Of a DNA stretch of 64,000 nucleotides, positions 1,984 through 59,559 are shown one piece after another. The stretch is from Paragonimus westermani (taxonomy: Eukaryota; Platyhelminthes; Trematoda; Plagiorchiida; Troglotrematidae), in NCBI GenBank assembly GCA_008508345.1, contig QNGE01000895.1, forward strand, positions 62,001-126,000. Direction: 5' to 3'. Positions within the stretch are counted from its first letter, which is position 1. The number at the start of each line of letters is the position of its first letter. The notes beneath the pieces are model-generated. The model searched no databases, had not been told where the DNA came from, and saw only the letters and a list, made by a program, of their open reading frames with translations. The translations under genes and the position numbers were made by a program.

Positions 1984-2293
1984 TTACTGATGAGTAGTCG
2001 GGGATTTGGTTTACTTTCAAGTTGACCATCACTCACATTTGATCGCAGCCTTCGCATTCAGATAGACTTTCCAGCCGGCCTCTTTCGAAAACAAGCGCTA
2101 GACTCGAGTTTCGCTCTCACTAGAGCTCGTCAGTAGTGCATATCCCTGCCACGGCCAGGATTTGAACTCGGGCCATTCCAATCATGAGGCAACTGTGTTA
2201 ACCACTGCGCCGCCATTGACCTCACATTAGGGACGACCGAATTATCAAATCTAAACCTGAAAATAAACCAAATCCCAGACTACTCATCAGTAA
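1984..2293 (-). mobile_element. family A hammerhead SINE inside 40-bp inverted repeats
   Basis: A minus-strand family A copy. Its tRNA-like B box reads GTTCAAATC (plus positions 2159-2167), the A-box region reads GGCGCAGTGG with a small insertion, and the hammerhead at 2095-2139 is intact in its core. The unit is bounded by an imperfect inverted repeat: 1984-2023 and 2254-2293 match in about 37 of 40 positions, with the outer ends reading TTACTGATGAGTAGTC and its complement. The left arm is the normal 3' tail of the family; the right arm is an extra inverted copy of that tail. This can be read as a foldback element or as rearranged neighbouring monomers. The next copy begins immediately after the right arm. 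Confidence 0.8.
2095..2139 (-). ncRNA. type I hammerhead ribozyme, catalytic core intact
   Basis: On the minus strand the 45 bases fold as a compact type I hammerhead. Stem I pairs GCACTA with TAGCGC (one A-C mismatch). The core CTGACGA is followed by stem II GCTCT/AGAGC with loop AGTG, then GAAA. Stem III is minimal, ACT-CG-AGT, and the cleavage triplet GTC precedes the 3' strand of stem I, so cleavage would fall between plus positions 2101 and 2100. All invariant core bases of the family are present. Very short stem III is known for hammerheads of SM-alpha and Penelope-like retroelements, which often work as dimers. Activity is inferred, not shown. Confidence 0.8.
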
Positions 2294-2498
2294 TCTAAAA
2301 TATCGCCTTACAGGTTTAATGAGTTCAGTGATTTCGACCTGTCTTGGAAGTCCTAAGCGCGCGCGGTTATCGATTGGAGTTAACAGGACAGTTACTGTGT
2401 CTGCTTTCGAGATGATAGGGCAACCTGATCATTGCTCACAAGCGAGAGTGGTTGAGCGTTCACATTTGATCATTCGGTCGTGCCTAATGTGAGGTCAA

Positions 2499-2552
2499 TG
2501 GCGCAGTGGTTAAAACGCTTGCCTCCTGATTGGAATGGTCGCAGTTCAAATC
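2499..2552 (+). promoter_or_regulatory. internal RNA polymerase III promoter (A and B boxes)
   Basis: TGGCGCAGTGG at 2499-2509 fits the tRNA A-box pattern, and GTTCAAATC at 2544-2552 is a perfect B box (GWTCRANNC). Their spacing fits a tRNA gene. The rest of the would-be tRNA does not fold as a cloverleaf and there is no CCA-ready acceptor stem, so this is a SINE promoter head and not a functional tRNA gene. Confidence 0.75.
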
Positions 2553-2571
2553 CCGACCGTGGCAAGGATAT

Positions 2572-2616
2572 ACACTACTGACGAGCTCTAATAAGAGCGA
2601 AACTCGAATCTAGTGC
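2572..2616 (+). ncRNA. type I hammerhead ribozyme, catalytic core intact
   Basis: Stem I pairs ACACTA with TAGTGC (five of six pairs). The core CTGACGA is followed by a perfect five-pair stem II, GCTCT/AGAGC with loop AATA, then GAAA. Stem III is ACT-CG-AAT, with the inner C-G pair lost, and the cleavage position is ATC, immediately before TAGTGC at 2611. The core is complete but the weakened stem III and stem I end pair predict lower activity than the copy at 2095-2139. Confidence 0.75.
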
Positions 2617-2707
2617 TTGTTTTCGAAAGAGGCCGGCTGGAGAATCTATTTGCATGCGAAGGCTGCGATGAAATATGAGAGTGATGATCAACCTGAAAGA
2701 GAAAAAT

Positions 2708-8698: not shown

Positions 8699-9039
8699 GT
8701 AAGCATTAATTAAAAAGATTCATATTAATATCTTGTGAAATATCTAAATTACAATTTCTCAACCTTTTCATGAACACGTACACCATGCTGATTTGTTAAA
8801 ACGAAGCCAGTACTTTCAACCTAACTTAGAAGTGTTGATCGTGAGGTTGGAATGAGCAGAGCGGTTCTGGTCATTCTACTGTCGAGAGGATTGCTTGAGC
8901 TGAACACTATCCGCACAAAGTTGTAGTTGACTGTTTGGATATGATCATTCTGTTTTTCCCGTGACCAAGTTACTAGCTTTGAGGTAACCACGCTGGAATT
9001 GCAAATATGAGGGCCCAAAGGCAATTTCTGGTCCGGACG
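8699..9039. other. no gene recognised
   Basis: Possible highly decayed 5' part of the SINE that follows (a TGATCATTCTGT segment near 8942 resembles the family A middle block). Otherwise nothing seen. Confidence 0.3.
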
Positions 9040-9180
9040 ACGACATCCACCAGTGGTGAGCTCTAAAAAGAGCGAAACTCCAGTCTACTGCTTCCTTTTA
9101 GGGTAGATCTGTTGAAGGACATTCCTGAATGCGGGGCTGCTATCAACTGTGTCTGGTGTTGATTTTGCGGTAATCCAAAT
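9040..9180 (+). mobile_element. family A SINE 3' half (decayed)
   Basis: Contains the hammerhead block at about 9045-9091: stem II GCTCT/AGAGC with loop AAAA, GAAA, and minimal stem III ACT-CC-AGT with GTC are intact. The catalytic CTGACGA has become GTGGTGA and stem I no longer pairs, so it should be inactive. The ATGCGGGGCTGCTATC block downstream matches the family 3' end. The tRNA-like head is not recognisable. Confidence 0.6.
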
Positions 9181-13320: not shown

Positions 13321-14869
13321 GTAAGTTAGGCATATTTCATTTAAATGTAGAAGTCTGCTGAGTGTTAACGATAGCAGCTGTCTGCAAAATACATTTCTTG
13401 TAGATTATATGGCAATCTGGAGAGAAGCCTTTGCACTGCCAACGAACTTCGGGTTATCACTGAGACTGTGGGGACATGTTATGACGAATCGGCTCAAAAT
13501 GAAGAGCTAGCTAACGTGCGGTTATGTGATAAGTTAGCTGTGCACGTCTATAATCGGCATAAGCGGTGCATTCTGCTGATGTACCCAACAAATATAGGAC
13601 AATAGAACCAGTTGTTTCTAGTAAGTCGAACTTATGTTACATTGTCACCTCTGTGTAGTCATTCTAACTAGTGGGTGACCTGGCATTCACAAAATATATT
13701 TTCGTCTTTCTGGTCCTTTGGAATGTGGTTATACCGAGAGATTTTATGTGTACCAGCAAGTTTTTGTTGATTGTAATGTTGATTCTGACCAAACAGACAT
13801 TTACCTTATTTTTTCGACATTTTATATGATTGGATTCACTTGATGACAAAGTTTTTGAAAAATATTTTTCTCACGCCTTTAACGCCGTAACAAAATGGTG
13901 ACCAACAGTCTATTGATGAAAAAATTGCTAATCCTTCATTGGAACTTCAGTATCAGTCTCCCAGACACGAAGTTGTGGATTGAATTCTTGTTTGATTCTA
14001 TTAATCATGGAAGATACCTTACAATACTTTGGAAATTTCTTTGAAGAGGTCATATTCATCAGAGTGACATTTCTGTTGGATGACGGGTACTGAACAAAGT
14101 AGACAACTCCCGCTGAACGTTATCATTCGTTCCCTAGAAAGTTAGTTCCCCGGCAATTGGGCCCAATCAAATGATTACGCAACACCTAAATAAGAAGATA
14201 TAACTACTGTCTGCTTCGTGTGCTACGTTTTGAGGCAGCAATTATGCGGATGTACCGTAAGGTGTATGCTTATGAAGGGAGTTTGTCAAACGAATTAGTC
14301 CTTCCTTCTGATATACTCCTGATTTTGACTTTATCGGTTTACACAAGCCAGATGCGTGTGTGACGTTGACAGAGCTTAGTGATGCAAGGCAGATTTAGCG
14401 ATGCATCACGGTAACAATTTTGTCGTGTATTATAACTCCACAAATTGTAGTTGCACGCAACCCATCCACACTGAATTTCGAGCAGCCCGACTAAGCAACG
14501 CGTTCCGTCTCTGATTTGTATTACTACTTATCCCAGGTGAGTTCATTACCAAAATGACCTTGTGATTTGGCTAAGATCATTTTCGAAAATTTCTGCACCA
14601 GCCCAGTGTGTACAAACGAGTATCAAATTGCCTCTCGGTATTACAACGTGTAATCACTAAAACCATACACTTTTCAAAATTTTCTGGTCCAATTACTTGT
14701 GGTGTATTACTGTTTGACTAATAAGACTCATGGTTGCACTTCTAGAAATCTTAGCAGTGCTCACTTTATGTAAAATAAATTTTGGGACCGTACTAACTAA
14801 ATCAGTCTTAAAATCAATCTGACGGTTGGATACGACCATACTCTCGTGTTATTCATTTAATTGGTGGTT
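13321..14869. other. no gene recognised
   Basis: Intron-like sequence. A perfect donor CCCAG|GTGAGT at 14536 has only a weak upstream open frame, so no exon is called. Confidence 0.3.
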
Positions 14870-15085
14870 GTTCGTTAGTGGTAGGTAGTGGGAGATTTTG
14901 GTTCTTGCAAACAGTTGGTCCGAATGACCACCATCGAAGTGGTGGACAGCTGTTTCGACCTGGTTGGGTCTCACCAACAGCACGCACACCGGAGAACCGA
15001 ACCCACAATCCGCCAATAAGTGGCAGATCGTATTGCAAACACTTACCCACTAGACCACGGGGTCACAACCACCGGGGTCGCAGGA
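14870..15085 (-). mobile_element. family B hammerhead SINE
   Basis: A second, unrelated tRNA-derived SINE on the minus strand. The head carries A box TGGTCTAGTGGGTA (plus 15044-15057) and B box GGTTCGGTTCTCC (plus about 14991-15003), with tRNA-like spacing. About 10 bases past the B box the hammerhead begins (14939-14983), followed by a tail containing CACCACTTCGATGGTGGTC, itself a hairpin, and GTTTGCAAGAACC. Sequence and hammerhead stems differ from family A, so the two families share architecture but not descent of the body. No coding capacity. Confidence 0.75.
14939..14983 (-). ncRNA. type I hammerhead ribozyme, core slightly damaged
   Basis: On the minus strand: stem I GTGCTG with CACCAC (five of six pairs), core TTGGTGA in place of CTGANGA (C3 and A6 changed), perfect stem II GACC/GGTC with loop CAACCA, GAAA, minimal stem III built from ACAGCTGT, and cleavage triplet GTC. 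Total 45 nt, the same size as in family A. The two core substitutions predict loss of cleavage in this copy, but the fold is clear. Confidence 0.7.
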
Positions 15086-15174
15086 AAGTATGCAAATTAT
15101 TTGCTGTAGCTGCCGTGCTCCCTTTCGATCACAGGCTGAAATAGACCAGCTATTTTGTGGTTTGATTTATACTG

Positions 15175-15640
15175 AAGACCACCCATGACTGATCGCAGCT
15201 GTCACATTCCCGTGGAATTTTCATTCGTCGATAATGCATATCCTTGTCACAACTGGGACTAGAAATATTGGCTCGCTTTCACGAGGTAATCTTTTGACAA
15301 CTGCACCATTGACCCCACATTGGGCACAACTGAAATATCAAATCTTAACGCTCAATCACTTTCTCTTGTGGGTAGTGATCAGGCTGTCCGATAGTCTCGA
15401 GAAGAGACACGGTTACTGTCCTGTTAAGTCCAATGGATGATTTCTCGATTGGGAGTTCTCTTCAGGTTGAAATCGTAAAAATCTAGCTGCTGGGCGATAT
15501 TTTGTCCAATGATTAGTAGTTGGGGATACGCACTACTGGCGAACTGTAATGAGAGTAAAACTGGAATCTGGTGCTTCTTTTCGAAAGGGGTGGACTAGGA
15601 AGCTTTTAAGAATGCGACATCTGCGTTCGCCTGTCGGTGA
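15175..15640 (-). mobile_element. family A SINE doublet: minus copy followed by plus 3' half
   Basis: From about 15185 to 15480 a minus-strand family A copy is visible: the 5' and middle blocks are clear, the tRNA head is eroded and the hammerhead region is partly deleted. From about 15505 to 15640 a plus-strand 3' half begins with ATTAGTAGTTGGGGAT, which is the family tail motif inverted, then goes directly into a hammerhead block (15530-15574) and the 3' region. The join contains the GGCGATATTTTGTCC junction sequence seen also in the doublet at 17480-17990. Confidence 0.65.
15530..15574 (+). ncRNA. decayed hammerhead ribozyme
   Basis: Stem I GCACTA/TGGTGC pairs fully with one wobble. The core reads CTGGCGA (A6 changed), stem II has one mismatch and GAAA has become AAAA. 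Same 45-nt layout as the intact copies, but two catalytic positions are lost, so inactive. Confidence 0.55.
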
Positions 15641-17479
15641 TGTTCAATATGTGTCATGTTTATTTGTTATGTAAGTAGCCTTAAAAGGTCATTGGTAGCA
15701 AAGTGATGAATGTTCAGTCAATGCTTGGCCTTTCCTTACCCGTTAATTCGGAATAATATATGCCACTTTAGGTCTACTGACTGCACTGCTTACGGCTTCA
15801 GTAACTTAAAAGTTGTACAGGCCGTTGTTATCTGATCAATTCAGTCATTTACTGAACTGGTCGCAGATTGTCAGTTTGATGACAAACATTATCGTGCATA
15901 CTATAGGCGCATACCTCAGCATCTGCTTGGCATTAACAGCGACTACAAATAGCTCTATAGTGTTAATAAACGTATGATCATAAAATGTTCATCCTTTTGG
16001 TTCACTGAGGTGGTATTGGAGGAGGAGGTGCACAATTATTCTGTAAATCTACTTAGAGGAACTAGAGGTTTTCACATTCCGAAAACGTTGTTTCAAATCT
16101 TTTCACCGTAAGCAACGCTGCAAAAACCTCATTAAGGAGTTGTTCGGTTCCTGAGGTGAATAGATTATATAATTTATTATTTTATAAATTACGGTCATCC
16201 TCTGGAGCACGGTCCGTGATCGAAAGTCAGCCAAATTCTTTGCAAACAGCATAAGCTTCTCAGAAAGCGTTAAACCGTTAAAATGGATAGCGCAGGTTAT
16301 ATTGTGCATGCAATTCTCTGCCTTGTTTGAACAATGAGGTGTGAACCGATTAAAAAATTCCACAGTGAATCTAACTACTATCGGAGGGACTTCGAAAATT
16401 ATTAACTTTCATCCATAAATCAATAGATACAAAAGTGGCCAATGAGTTCCGTGTCAGAACACCAGCAATCATGTCAGAATACAGCACCATGAATGCCCAT
16501 TAAACGTTATCTGGTTAACGTGCATAAGACATTAAAGTAAATCTATATGTGGTTTGCATTAGTTACAAGTCTTCCGTTCACATTTGCCATTGTTGATTAT
16601 GAATAGGATATAACAACAGTGTGAAACAGTTGACTGCGCTCATAAACGTTTTCCCGTTCAATAACGAATAACAACATTTAGATACACATAGATATAACAC
16701 TAGCTTGGCGGACGGTGAGTATATAAAACATCAAATGGAGTGGAAGACAACGGCATAAAACCAACATCCATGAGAGTCTAATGCCCACAAGTAAAAGTTC
16801 TTTGTACACAGTTCTGGCTTGGGGCGGCTAATCATGGCCCTCTGGGCAGAATTCAGGAAACGCGGATTAGCACGGCTTATTATAATCTTGAATGTCGATT
16901 CCAGATTGATCCGATAACTGGTGGCCAGCGTGTATCCAGTGATGGATAAAATCAGAGTTTTGCTCGGTTCACCAGTGATCAAACAATAATGATCAGACGG
17001 TCGTCAATTCCTTTGAGGTAACGCCATGATACCGAAGATTTTCGTAAAAGTCAACAAAGATGCCTACGCAATCGAGATTGAACGTCCGGCGTTGTTCACA
17101 AAAGTTTAGGTCATAATTAGGAGTTCTCCAGAAAAGTCTATGAATCTTACATTCTGTGTCTTGCAGTTTACGTGTACTGAAGATTTGAGCCTAAAGTGCG
17201 GTTATGATATCCGACGCTACAACTCGGAAATAAAAGCGCTTCGTTTGGTTCAGTGCTGCTAAATCTCTCAACATACTTACAACATGAAGTGGAGTTGGTA
17301 TTGGTAGGCTCATAGGCTTAAAACACGCCATACAGATTTACACGACAAGCAAGCTTCAGCAGTGACTTGTTCCACCATTCAGTAGGGGATTTTGGTTAGA
17401 ATTAGTCGGGTATCATTAAAAAGTCGTTGTCAATTTCAGATTTTCATAAAATGTTTAGACAGCTATCTCCAAAAATGCA
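15641..17479. other. no gene recognised
   Basis: Intron or intergenic. An open minus-strand stretch at 16731-16982 lacks splice support. Confidence 0.3.
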
Positions 17480-17990
17480 GGAGATCGGAGTTTCACTCAT
17501 ATTAGGGCTTGCTAACAGTGCACCCCGTTGTAACAACTAGATTTCACACTCCGACCACGCTTTCGCGAGACAAACTTGTTAACCAGTAAGCCGCTGACCT
17601 CGCCTTGGGCAGGGCTAATAAAAATGCTCAACCGTACTAGCTTGTGAGTTGAGTTTATTACTCAACTTCCCCAATGGACACAAAAACAATGATTCTCTGG
17701 TTCACACTAATCGATTACCTCCTCATTGGGACGTATCTTCAAGTCGAAACCACAAAAGTCTTTCAGCTTGAGCGATACTTTCACCACGGATAGTTCATTC
17801 GTGAGGTCAGTAACTTGGCGGTGAACTCAGTTTCTTCAAGAAAGCAGGGCCAGATCAAGAGCTATACCGTCGCATACACATACAATGCCTACAGGCCCTG
17901 GCGAAAGAAAAGCTTACGTCTAGTACTTCTTTTCGGGAGAGGCTGGTGAAGAAGAGAAAGGTAACGCGAAATCTGCGAACAATTGTGAAT
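17480..17990 (-). mobile_element. family A SINE doublet, decayed
   Basis: A minus-strand copy (about 17480-17770) retains GAAACTCCGATC of the hammerhead end and the 5' and middle blocks, including the CCCAATGGACACAA region and the TTGAGCGATACTTTC junction. It is followed at about 17835-17960 by a plus-strand 3' fragment with TCTAGTACTTCTTTTCGGG and GAGAGGCTGGTG, matching the family 3' end. Hammerhead cores in both parts are lost. The order and orientation match the doublet at 15175-15640. Confidence 0.5.
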
Positions 17991-25764: not shown

Positions 25765-26084
25765 CAGGTGTCAATGGCGTTAATATAGGTTTGATTTCTG
25801 TATCGCCTATAGACCTTTAAGGACCCGTCAATTCAGGCAAATCTACGAGCGGATACCTCTTTCCCGGCGACCGCACTTTGCTTGTTAACTATCTGGAGGA
25901 AATATTTTTGTTTTTAATCTGTTGACATCATTAGAAGCAACGAGTATAACTGTGTACCAGCATATAAAGAACAAACCCTTCATAAGTGGATCGAATTTCA
26001 GTCGTACTATATAACAGCGTCCAATAACGAAAGGTTTCTGTCTAAATTCAATTCAGCCAACCCCTAGACTGAAATTTTTCTCAT
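25765..26084. other. putative gene B intron
   Basis: Nothing recognised. Confidence 0.3.
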
Positions 26085-26400
26085 ATCATAGCTCGTTGCC
26101 TAGACAATGGTTTGAACTTTGGGTTCGTGCTTTTGAGGTGCACGTCAATCACAACGCCACTGAACTCACGTTAGGAGTGACCGAATTACTCACAGTCGAG
26201 TGTGACCAAGTGTAATTAGGATAGGTCGATTGAGCCTTATGTAAGTTCTATAACACACCTGTTAACACGGCTGATTCACAGAAACCTGGGCAGAAGTTCA
26301 AATCCCGGTAGTGATGCAAGCATGTATGAATGGTGGAATATAGACCACACCAAGGAGAGAGGCCCAGTGTTCTCTGAGTAAGAAGGCTGTGAATACCTCA
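26085..26400 (-). mobile_element. family A SINE doublet, decayed
   Basis: About 26085-26200 carries the inverted tRNA-like head of family A: the complement reads ATTCGGTCACTCCTAACG and TTCAGTGGC, with a B-box-like TTCAAACC. About 26255-26400 carries a plus-strand head with B box AGTTCAAATCCCGG (near 26297-26310), then a decayed 3' part without a working hammerhead. Again a minus copy followed by a plus copy. Confidence 0.5.
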
Positions 26401-35689: not shown

Positions 35690-37560
35690 GTATTTGAATA
35701 GTGTTTATAAATATGACCCGTTGTTATACTGACCGGCAAGTCGGTGTGAGTGAGAACATATGTGAAAATGATGGTTCAATTATCACCAGCCAGACGCGCC
35801 GACTTGACAGTTGGGCTGAATATTTTGAAAAAACAGTTCAGTCGGCCTCAACCAGATCATGTGCACGACGGGACTCGATTGGTCAGCTATTACATTCTAG
35901 ACGGTCCTTCGTTGAAAGCAGAATTAGTGATGGAGCTCAAGTTATTGGATGGTAATAAGGCTTCTGGACCACACCTCTTCTCTCCTTCTCTTTTCAAAAA
36001 TGGTGGAGTAAGGTTGCTATCAGAACTGACAAAAATTCTCCCGACGGTCTGAGAGACTGAAGAGGTGCCTCGTGATTGGTGTCTGTCAACAAACATTTCC
36101 GATTTAAAGAGGGGCTCGACGTCTACGTGACAACCACAGAGGCATCAGTTTGGTGCCCGTTTTGTCCAAGTTACTCACTGGCCTCATTTTACGTCGGTTC
36201 ACCAAGCCCAGAGAAAGTCAGATACGCGGAGAACAAGCAGGATTCACATCCAGTCGGGGGTGTTTTGGTCACATTTTTACCTTACGACGGATCTTGGAAC
36301 ATCGGCATTCATATAGGCAGCCGACGGTCGTGGTCTTTGTGGACCTGAGGGCTGCTTTCGATTCAGTTGCTCATAACGTTCTCTGGAGCTGTCTCCTTCG
36401 CAAGGGAGTACCAGAGAAATACGTGAACCTATAGGGATCATTGTACGCTAACTCTGCAAGCAAAGTGAGAGTTTATGGACAACTGTCTCGAGCGTTCATC
36501 ACTTCTAGTGGTGTTCGTCAGGGGTGTCCGATTTCCCCCTTCCTGTTCAATTTTGTTATGGACGACATTCTGGAGGGTGCGCTTCGTGAATCCAGTGGGC
36601 TTGGTGTTGAGCTTCTTCCTGGCGCTAGATTGACCGACCTGGAGTACGCGGACGACATTGTCTTACTTAGCCCCTCTGCCGAAGACATGCAGACCATGCT
36701 GAACAAGGTGAGTGACCGGGCTGGTTTGTATGGAATGCGCTTCGCACCTTCAAAGTGCAAAGTGCTGCTTCAAGACTGGGGCATTTCCACCCTTACTTTC
36801 TTCATTGCAGGTAATCCGTTTGAGACTGTGGACAGTTTCACGTACTTAGGTAGCACTATCTCGTCAGCCTGTAATATTGCTGATGAGATATCAGTGTGGA
36901 TAGCCAAGACACGAGTTGCCTTTTCCAAGCTGCGTCATCTGTGGCGTCGAAAAGACGTTCAGTTGTCACTGAAAGGATGGGTCTATAATGCCTGTGTGCG
37001 TTCCATTTTGCTGTATGGTTCTGAATGGTGGCCTGTTCGCAAGCATGGTATCAACAGGCTTGCTGTGTTTGACAATCGTTTTCTCCGCCACTTGGCCCAC
37101 ATTAATTGGACTGATCGCGTGAGCAAGGTGGCAGCTCGCCCGCGCGTATTCCGGAACGTTCGGGATGCGCGATCAATTGGTCAAGTAGTTACGTTGCACA
37201 GCTTGCGATGAGGGGTCACGTTCTCCGTAAGCCAGCTGAGCGTTTACCGTACTGGGCATTATATACTGAGGCTACCAACGTAGTCACGAAACATGAAGAC
37301 CCTGACTGCTCCATTGAACAAAGTGAGCAAGCACCGCCTGACTGAATGGGGTCCTCGTGATCACTCTAACCTCTGGTTAGAGATGCCATCCATTTCCAGT
37401 TCCATACCATCCCCAGTTCTTCCGGCTAGTCTTCTTTCAGTATTTGTCGACCTTCTTTCTAACGTTTCCTTTTAGGATATTCCACGTCGTTGTTGAGGTG
37501 AGCGGTGGCCCGAGCCACAGTAACTTTGGTTAGGCTCACGGCTGTTTTGATGATGATTAT
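35690..37560 (+). mobile_element. 5'-truncated, frame-broken RTE-type non-LTR retrotransposon
   Basis: Reverse transcriptase of a LINE. In order: a linker (RRLDSWAEYF, NKASGP), RT motif GFTSSRGCFGHIFTLRRILE, motif A VVFVDLRAAFDSV with its catalytic aspartate, motif B SSGVRQGCPISPFLFNF, motif C LEYADDIVLL, then FTYLGSTIS, and the C-terminal ILLYGSEWWPV, GHVLRKPAERLPYWAL and EWGPRDHSNLWLE blocks. The endonuclease domain is missing (5' truncation). Breaks: frameshifts near 35830, 36060-36150, 37205 and 37320, and stops at 36050 (TGA), 36432 (TAG) and 37209 (TGA). The longest intact piece is 36441-37211 (256 codons). A dead copy. The C-terminal blocks are those of the RTE-like elements abundant in flatworms; clade assignment is by memory of such motifs. 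Confidence 0.92.
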
Positions 37561-58356: not shown

Positions 58357-59559
58357 ATATAATACAGTGTGCAACAGAAGTCGGTAAACTGCGTCTATTT
58401 TGAGCCCGTTAATAGGCGTTACAAATGGTATTTATTTTTAATAGCTGGCTGTCACCGGAAGGCAGTACGTCGCGTTAAACATATCCACATTAGTACCGAT
58501 ACTGTGATCATGGGGAGCATTGGAAGGTTCACCATGCAAGCATAAAGCACACATGTTCGCAACAGGTAGTATGAGTTAATTACATACTCATTTAAAATAG
58601 CTGCTACGTAGTTATATCAACGCGATTCATAATCGATCGGTTGCACAGTTCTCTTTGGTTTTCAAGCTACATTCTCATTTTCACATCAATAGGCAACATA
58701 ATTATCCCGTATTTAAATGCAAATCCTTACCACAGGTTTCTTGAGGCTTTCTTACCGTTGACTCACCGATAAGCATTAAAAGCGTTTACTGTAACTCAGC
58801 CCGGGAACAATGGGAAGCCTGGGTACTATTCGAAAGCGAAAGTGACCAAAAGTGTTGACGTAATACTTGGAACAGGCCTAGCCGGAACCAACTAGACTGT
58901 AATTACAGAAACAAAAATTATGATTACAACCGTGGGAGATTGCATACTGAATGTTAGCAGTAAAGTGAGCGAAGACCAAATGCCATCATTTTACGGAAAC
59001 CGGTTGAAACAGTCTGACAGTAAATGAAAGATGCAATCCAATAGGAGTTAAGTTCAAGATATAATTCAAATTACCATCTGTTACCTATTTGTATTTGTTG
59101 GAGGACGAAACTTGAAATTAATCGCAGACGCAACAACAGATAAGCGAGCACCTATAACAATTTCCGTTTCAGCTAATTACGTTTGATTATTTACAATATA
59201 ATCAACCGTTATGTTTGTTTGAGTGGATACACCATGTGCACAAACCGCACGGGACAGAGCAACTATATCGACTGTACCCTGAACAATCATTACACATTGA
59301 ATACGAACAAATATTTGTGTTCTACAATTTACCCTCAAAAGTGATGTCTTCAGTTAATTTGTCTCTTGGTTGACTAAGCTATTGGTGTAGTTTGTGAATC
59401 AAGTAGACAGGCATTGGTTTGCTTCGACCTGCAAAAGATTTATCCATTATAAGCCTGTTTTATTAAAGTTTTTAGGCATGAACAAACATTTTTTTCGTTA
59501 TTTTGGTTCCTCTCAATATGTCATGGCTTGGTTGTCAGGCTTTTATTCAGCCAATCTCA
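58357..59559. other. no gene recognised
   Basis: Nothing supported. An open plus stretch from 59394 overlaps the DSL-like frame that follows in a different frame. Confidence 0.3.

Follow-up and report, generated by a model that had tools for sequence, protein, structure and literature searches.

In the 64-kb stretch of DNA analysed here (the window) we have identified a repeat that carries tRNA-like boxes, keeps two intact type I hammerhead cores and recurs in a mirrored layout. On balance we consider it probable that the repeat is a non-autonomous element of Pol III type, akin in kind to Sm-alpha with its type I hammerhead, and that in this window it chiefly takes the form of an inverted composite, two head-to-head arms with a tail-like piece X and then segment U between them. 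Each arm taken by itself is best read as a Pol III-type repeat that resembles Sm-alpha and carries a type I hammerhead, and to that extent the original prediction of a Sm-alpha-like family stands. The recurrence of the opposed layout, in four pairs, had been missed.

The arm repeat and its head-to-head pairs

The arms are about 240 bp long, and their shared features are a head resembling a tRNA, the ribozyme and a 3' portion. A profile built from eight arms (D among them) finds ten arms in the window at E<1e-7, the next match standing at E=0.011, and a profile made from A, B and D alone refinds the other seven at E values from 1.1e-6 to 8.9e-21. Reversed and shuffled windows served as decoys, with a best E over both profiles of 0.0025. 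All copy counts and layouts of the family rest on this one 64-kb window. The features are as follows.

684-1089, plus: single copy A, mutated ribozyme core; U at 684-848 (U profile), arm A at 846-1089 (arm profile)
1972-1982, plus: candidate target-site duplication, left, AGTTTAAGGAA
1983-2709: candidate composite inverted-repeat unit D/B, made of left arm (minus), X, U and right arm (plus)
1984-2023, minus: 3' tail of arm D, the outer left end
2011-2256, minus: arm D, the left arm, with tRNA-like head and hammerhead (profile E=1.5e-74)
2095-2139, minus: type I hammerhead of arm D, predicted cut 2101/2100 (Rfam Hammerhead_1, 26.8 bits)
2254-2293, plus: X, which repeats the 3' tail of the arm ahead of U and is 93% complementary to 1984-2023
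2294-2460, plus: segment U (U profile E=3e-49), joined to the 5' end of plus arm B
2458-2697, plus: arm B, the right arm, structured like D and 0.89 identical to it (arm profile)
2572-2616, plus: type I hammerhead of arm B, predicted cut 2610/2611 (Rfam HH9, 26.5 bits at 2560-2633)
2710-2720, plus: candidate target-site duplication, right, AGTTTATGGAA
8799-9173, plus: single copy E, mutated core (Rfam HH9, 22.3 bits); U at 8799-8936 (U profile), arm E at 8934-9173 (arm profile)
15169-15651: head-to-head pair C/F; arm C at 15169-15349 (minus), ribozyme mostly deleted; U at 15347-15503 (U profile), joined to C; arm F at 15522-15651 (plus), core mutated (both arms by arm profile)
17436-17988: head-to-head pair G/G'; arm G at 17436-17620 (minus); U at 17621-17781 (U profile), joined to G; arm G' at 17789-17988 (plus); both cores mutated (both arms by arm profile)
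26050-26321: head-to-head pair H/H', fragments; arm H at 26050-26188 (minus), ribozyme decayed; arm H' at 26220-26321 (plus), ribozyme not reached (both arms by arm profile)

Eight of the ten arms sit in four head-to-head pairs, of which D/B is the best kept. All four neighbour pairs within 210 bp are head-to-head, none being tail-to-tail or head-to-tail; random placement gave four such pairs in 0 and three in 11 of 100,000 trials, under a null that presumes independent placement and that an insertion preference would break. Segment U, about 165 bp long, separates the arms of three pairs (D/B, C/F and G/G'); its profile found it at five sites, each time on the 5' side of one arm (B, C, G, A and E). 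The U profile found none in the H/H' pair, where lax blastn aligned approximately 27 bases from the end of U. One further match of the U profile (58761-58844, plus, E=0.0043), weak and with no arm nearby, is at decoy level.

Two other sources of the layout were rejected. An assembly palindrome was set aside on the ground that the arms are 0.89 identical or less. A general trait of the repeats of the window was rejected as well: five of the seven inverted pairs of at least 24 nt within 1.5 kb belong to the arm family, and the two others reach 72-73% over 26-32 nt.

The ribozyme region is kept in eight of the ten arms (in H only in part); in C it is mostly deleted, and H' ends before it. Its core is intact in D and B and mutated in the remaining six. 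TTTT follows 3' of the ribozyme in seven of these eight arms, H being the exception, and in D and B it starts nine bases past the expected cut. The A and B boxes that had been proposed for both best copies were recovered as a strict B box in each and a strict A box in B, but D has no strict A-box match, three bases being inserted there. Strict A and B boxes thus occur together in arm B only; D, H and H' have the strict B box alone, and C has an A-box match alone.

A plasmid search with the arm repeat gave no match, the repeat pattern had 0 matches in viral contigs and the ribozyme pattern 0 in prokaryote genomes. Frame translations of the repeat yielded 464 candidates against proteins, none at E<=0.01. 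The D/B pair has no ORF of at least 120 aa within 34 kb of it, and no array was reported in the window by Tandem Repeats Finder (default score, 50). A Pfam scan of two ORFs of the window identified one of them (36441-37211, plus) as a reverse transcriptase, RVT_1. Among the best 120 of its 169 protein matches, the top one is a metagenome protein (66% over 100% of the query), the best named relatives are two Paragonimus westermani proteins (83% over 83% and 69% over 91% of the query), and Schistosoma proteins covering at least 90% of the query show 48-56% identity. Judged by this one ORF of a mobile element, the window belongs to a trematode, probably Paragonimus or a relative.

Hammerhead motifs, folding and predicted transcripts

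The placement of two copies of one repeat on opposed strands, with hammerheads at 2095-2139 (minus) and 2572-2616 (plus), was confirmed in coordinates and strands. Both follow the order stem I, CTGACGA, stem II, GAAA, short stem III, triplet, stem I; the CUGANGA and GAAA core is exact in each, and the perfect 5-bp stem II that had been reported is present in both (5/5 pairs in D, 5/5 in B). Counting to C17 places the predicted cuts, as before, at 2101/2100 (minus) and 2610/2611 (plus). The window holds two exact matches to the core pattern, against a maximum of 0 in 100 dinucleotide shuffles; a chance motif was rejected on this count.

The cores and stem II stood up, but the word 'complete', as originally applied to these hammerheads, is too strong, because stem I has 5/6 pairs in each and stem III of B contains a C.A mismatch. 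The stem I defect is an A.C mismatch, which in D, on the minus strand, lies within the helix and in B, on the plus strand, at its outer end. Stem III is whole in D and broken in B (ACTCGAAT, with the C.A adjoining an A-U pair and the triplet ATC); its octamer is self-complementary at 8/8 positions in D (ACTCGAGT) and at 6/8 in B. A hammerhead descriptor demanding four consecutive stem I pairs and an unbroken stem III had no match, and neither D nor B satisfies both.

The proposed Rfam search returned both motifs, but below the gathering score: D matches Hammerhead_1 with 26.8 bits (E=0.027 over 64 kb; gathering 34) and B matches HH9 with 26.5 bits (E=0.024 over 64 kb; gathering 52), two matches that are non-independent, as both are copies of one repeat. 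At the gathering score there was no match in the whole window. At E<=1 over 64 kb we found four, all of them hammerheads: 14939-14983 (minus), 30.9 bits; 2095-2139 (minus), 26.8 bits; 2560-2633 (plus), 26.5 bits; and 9035-9123 (plus), 22.3 bits.

The match at 14939-14983 (minus; E=0.0011) is a degenerate type I hammerhead with the core TTGGTGA and the octamer ACAGCTGT. It belongs to a second tRNA-like repeat (14800-15080, minus), which has a strict A box and is not alignable to the first. Blastn found no other copy of this repeat in the window, and the ORF over it gave one candidate against proteins and none at E<=0.01.

A looser ribozyme pattern is carried by ten viral contigs (L001-L010) in the form CTGANGAGCTCT...AGAGCGAAAC. 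Several of them (e.g. L001, L005, L006 and L009) have, by eye, plausible hammerheads with a longer stem III. Blastn of the arm repeat against the ten aligned at most 28 bases, the best alignment being the motif itself.

The folding program, which ignores tertiary contacts, gives the hammerhead fold -4.9 kcal/mol versus an energy minimum of -9.8 kcal/mol in the 45-mer of D, and -3.6 versus -11.0 kcal/mol in that of B. Neither in an idealised 45-mer nor in two model outward transcripts is the hammerhead the energy minimum, so that its fold would have to be helped by dimerisation or flanking contacts. The long hairpin RNA that had been suggested was borne out by folding, which would leave the ribozyme blocked: the RNA of 1983-2709 folds at -417 kcal/mol into a structure that joins the arms, in which arm D pairs with 40 of the 45 bases of B's ribozyme. 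As the ribozyme is buried in the two-arm hairpin, only single-arm outward transcripts could cleave. Judging from this fold, read-through RNA over both arms should be a non-cleaving duplex.

From these elements a mode of action can be proposed. The internal promoter of an arm would start a short outward transcript that holds a single sense ribozyme and ends at TTTT, and whose U-rich 3' end the ribozyme, with its predicted activity, would trim. Trimming would probably proceed better in a dimer formed through the self-complementary stem III octamer. Dimer action as reported, however, requires a single RNA that carries both copies in tandem, and opposed arms offer no such RNA. Unit-length circles would need two cuts on one strand, as direct tandem copies would give; the copies in D and B are opposed. 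RNA of both arms would form a long duplex with the ribozyme blocked and could feed small-RNA silencing. New copies may arise by target-primed reverse transcription, for which an enzyme would be borrowed; the mirrored form would either go in whole, as a single unit, or be generated by copying back during insertion.

A bolder version, which we think rather unlikely to hold, is a mirrored retroelement with one hammerhead per polarity. Its outward single-arm transcripts would be catalytic and its read-through RNA a ribozyme-dead duplex, which would amount to a switch between self-trimming RNA and silencing dsRNA, and every insertion would regenerate the mirror arm, using a circular or multimeric template of which the tail-U junction would be the trace.

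Origin of the pairs

The two ends of the D/B unit differ: the right end is without the tail of about 30 nt found at the left end. A second, tail-like copy precedes U in B (X) and likewise in C; by eye, A, E and G have no such piece before U. The tail-U junction shared by B and C hints at a circular or multimeric/tandem template. Read on the opposite strand, the tail (1984-2023, 2254-2293) is TTACTGATGAGTAGTC, in which CTGATGAG resembles a hammerhead core; Rfam at E<=1 gave no hammerhead at either place.

The unit is flanked by a candidate target-site duplication, AGTTTAAGGAA and AGTTTATGGAA being identical at 10 of 11 positions. In a broad test of 50-base flanks 8.8% of random pairs (0.088) match as well as this one; in a test anchored at the end of the tail, and chosen after the match had been seen, 0.21% do (42/20,000; 0.0021). 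No target duplication was found in the flanks of the other three pairs or of the two single copies, A and E. D and B are 0.89 identical, each being 0.74-0.76 identical to A, and they are sisters with a support of 0.90; C and F group weakly (0.455), and G/G' and H/H' do not group. The D/B pair may be one insertion of 727 bp, and the pairs need not all share one mode of origin, since only D and B are clearly sisters.

For the composite we count the ten arms, the four head-to-head pairs, U in three of them, the candidate duplication, the D and B cores, TTTT and the hairpin. Against it count the lack of an Rfam match at gathering score, the mutated cores in six of eight arms, strict A and B boxes in arm B only, a hammerhead that is not the energy minimum, a duplication that is weak by the broad test and missing around the other three pairs and both single copies, a clear sister grouping in D/B only, the tandem copies that reported dimer action requires and the asymmetric D/B ends.

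The likeliest alternative, a real though minor possibility, is that the pairs arose by repeated independent insertions and that no composite exists: the full element would be U plus arm, at whose 5' end a shorter, U-less copy tends to insert head-to-head. The single arms A and E, each with U, fit this account, as do the pairs G/G' and H/H', in which neither mate is nearer to its partner than to other arms, and the missing duplication around three of the four pairs. It would require a very exact target preference, however, to produce both one orientation in four of four pairs and the tail-U junction common to B and C, and the sister relationship of D and B speaks against it. Ordinary decay, with Sm-alpha-like or retrozyme-like copies whose ribozyme is inactive and whose mirrored layout stems from local rearrangement, would account for the six mutated cores among the eight kept ribozyme regions and for the helix defects in both best copies; four separate loci with one layout, and two intact cores with a perfect stem II, make it improbable. 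Finally, a DNA transposon with terminal inverted repeats, of Mutator-like, fold-back or MITE type, whose ends gained the hammerhead-bearing tRNA-like repeat would agree with arms of about 240 bp in inverted order and with the 11-bp candidate duplication, a length that would suit Mutator-like elements, but is highly improbable given the asymmetric ends of D/B and arms that also occur singly with U. Symmetric ends and duplications of fixed length mark this class; a candidate duplication was seen at one of the four pairs.

Comparison with known hammerhead-bearing elements

We return to the composite of Pol III-type repeats as the preferred reading in setting the family beside known systems. The primary papers on the Sm-alpha and Sj-alpha ribozymes are reportedly those of Ferbeyre in 1998 and Laha in 2000. 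Long terminal-inverted-repeat DNA transposons have long inverted arms, as does the D/B unit, which differs from them by its asymmetric ends and by the Pol III boxes and ribozyme in its arms.

A search of the open-licence literature found no paper with both 'hammerhead ribozyme' and 'Paragonimus', and no account of a recurrent mirrored layout. Passages on the P. westermani genome give SINEs as 0.96% of that genome, with families unnamed there, and a GC content of 43.3% (PMC6329441); that of the window is 39.4%.

Hammerhead-bearing repeats in flukes are already known from schistosomes. Sm-alpha and Sj-alpha of Schistosoma are described as SINE-like elements that carry type I hammerheads along with Pol III A and B boxes (PMC2576457, PMC2770079, PMC8490949); one of these sources counts more than 38,000 hammerhead candidates in S. 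mansoni and more than 5,000 in S. japonicum (PMC2770079). The present repeat likewise unites a type I hammerhead and Pol III A and B boxes (both strict in B), a likeness of architecture; ten of its arms lie in the 64 kb. It differs in probably coming from another fluke family, in its recurrent mirrored pairs and in segment U.

Animal non-LTR retrozymes are portrayed as small non-autonomous units of a few hundred bases with type I hammerheads, arranged as direct tandem repeats in many phyla including platyhelminths (PMC7229834). The fluke repeat resembles them as a small non-autonomous unit that bears a type I hammerhead; unlike theirs, its copies are opposed, with no tandem array in the window (Tandem Repeats Finder, score 50). 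Penelope-like elements bear minimal type I hammerheads, said in passages of two papers to cleave as dimers, and have a tandem or partial tandem organisation (PMC7761336, PMC11167929); the wider statement that type I hammerheads with short stems function as dimers, two copies standing in tandem on the same RNA, appears in PMC6155905 and PMC7761336. The minimal type I hammerhead is shared with these elements, but the fluke repeat has a tRNA-like promoter and no ORF of at least 120 aa within 34 kb of the D/B pair. A reverse transcriptase with a GIY-YIG nuclease marks Penelope-like elements; of the two ORFs scanned with Pfam, the one at 36441-37211 has RVT_1.

If this is a lung-fluke genome, as is probable, the range for which such hammerhead repeats have been named becomes wider, and the mirrored pairs may constitute a new form of hammerhead-bearing mobile element. 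As opposed arms predict which transcripts can cleave, the role of the ribozyme for the element becomes testable.
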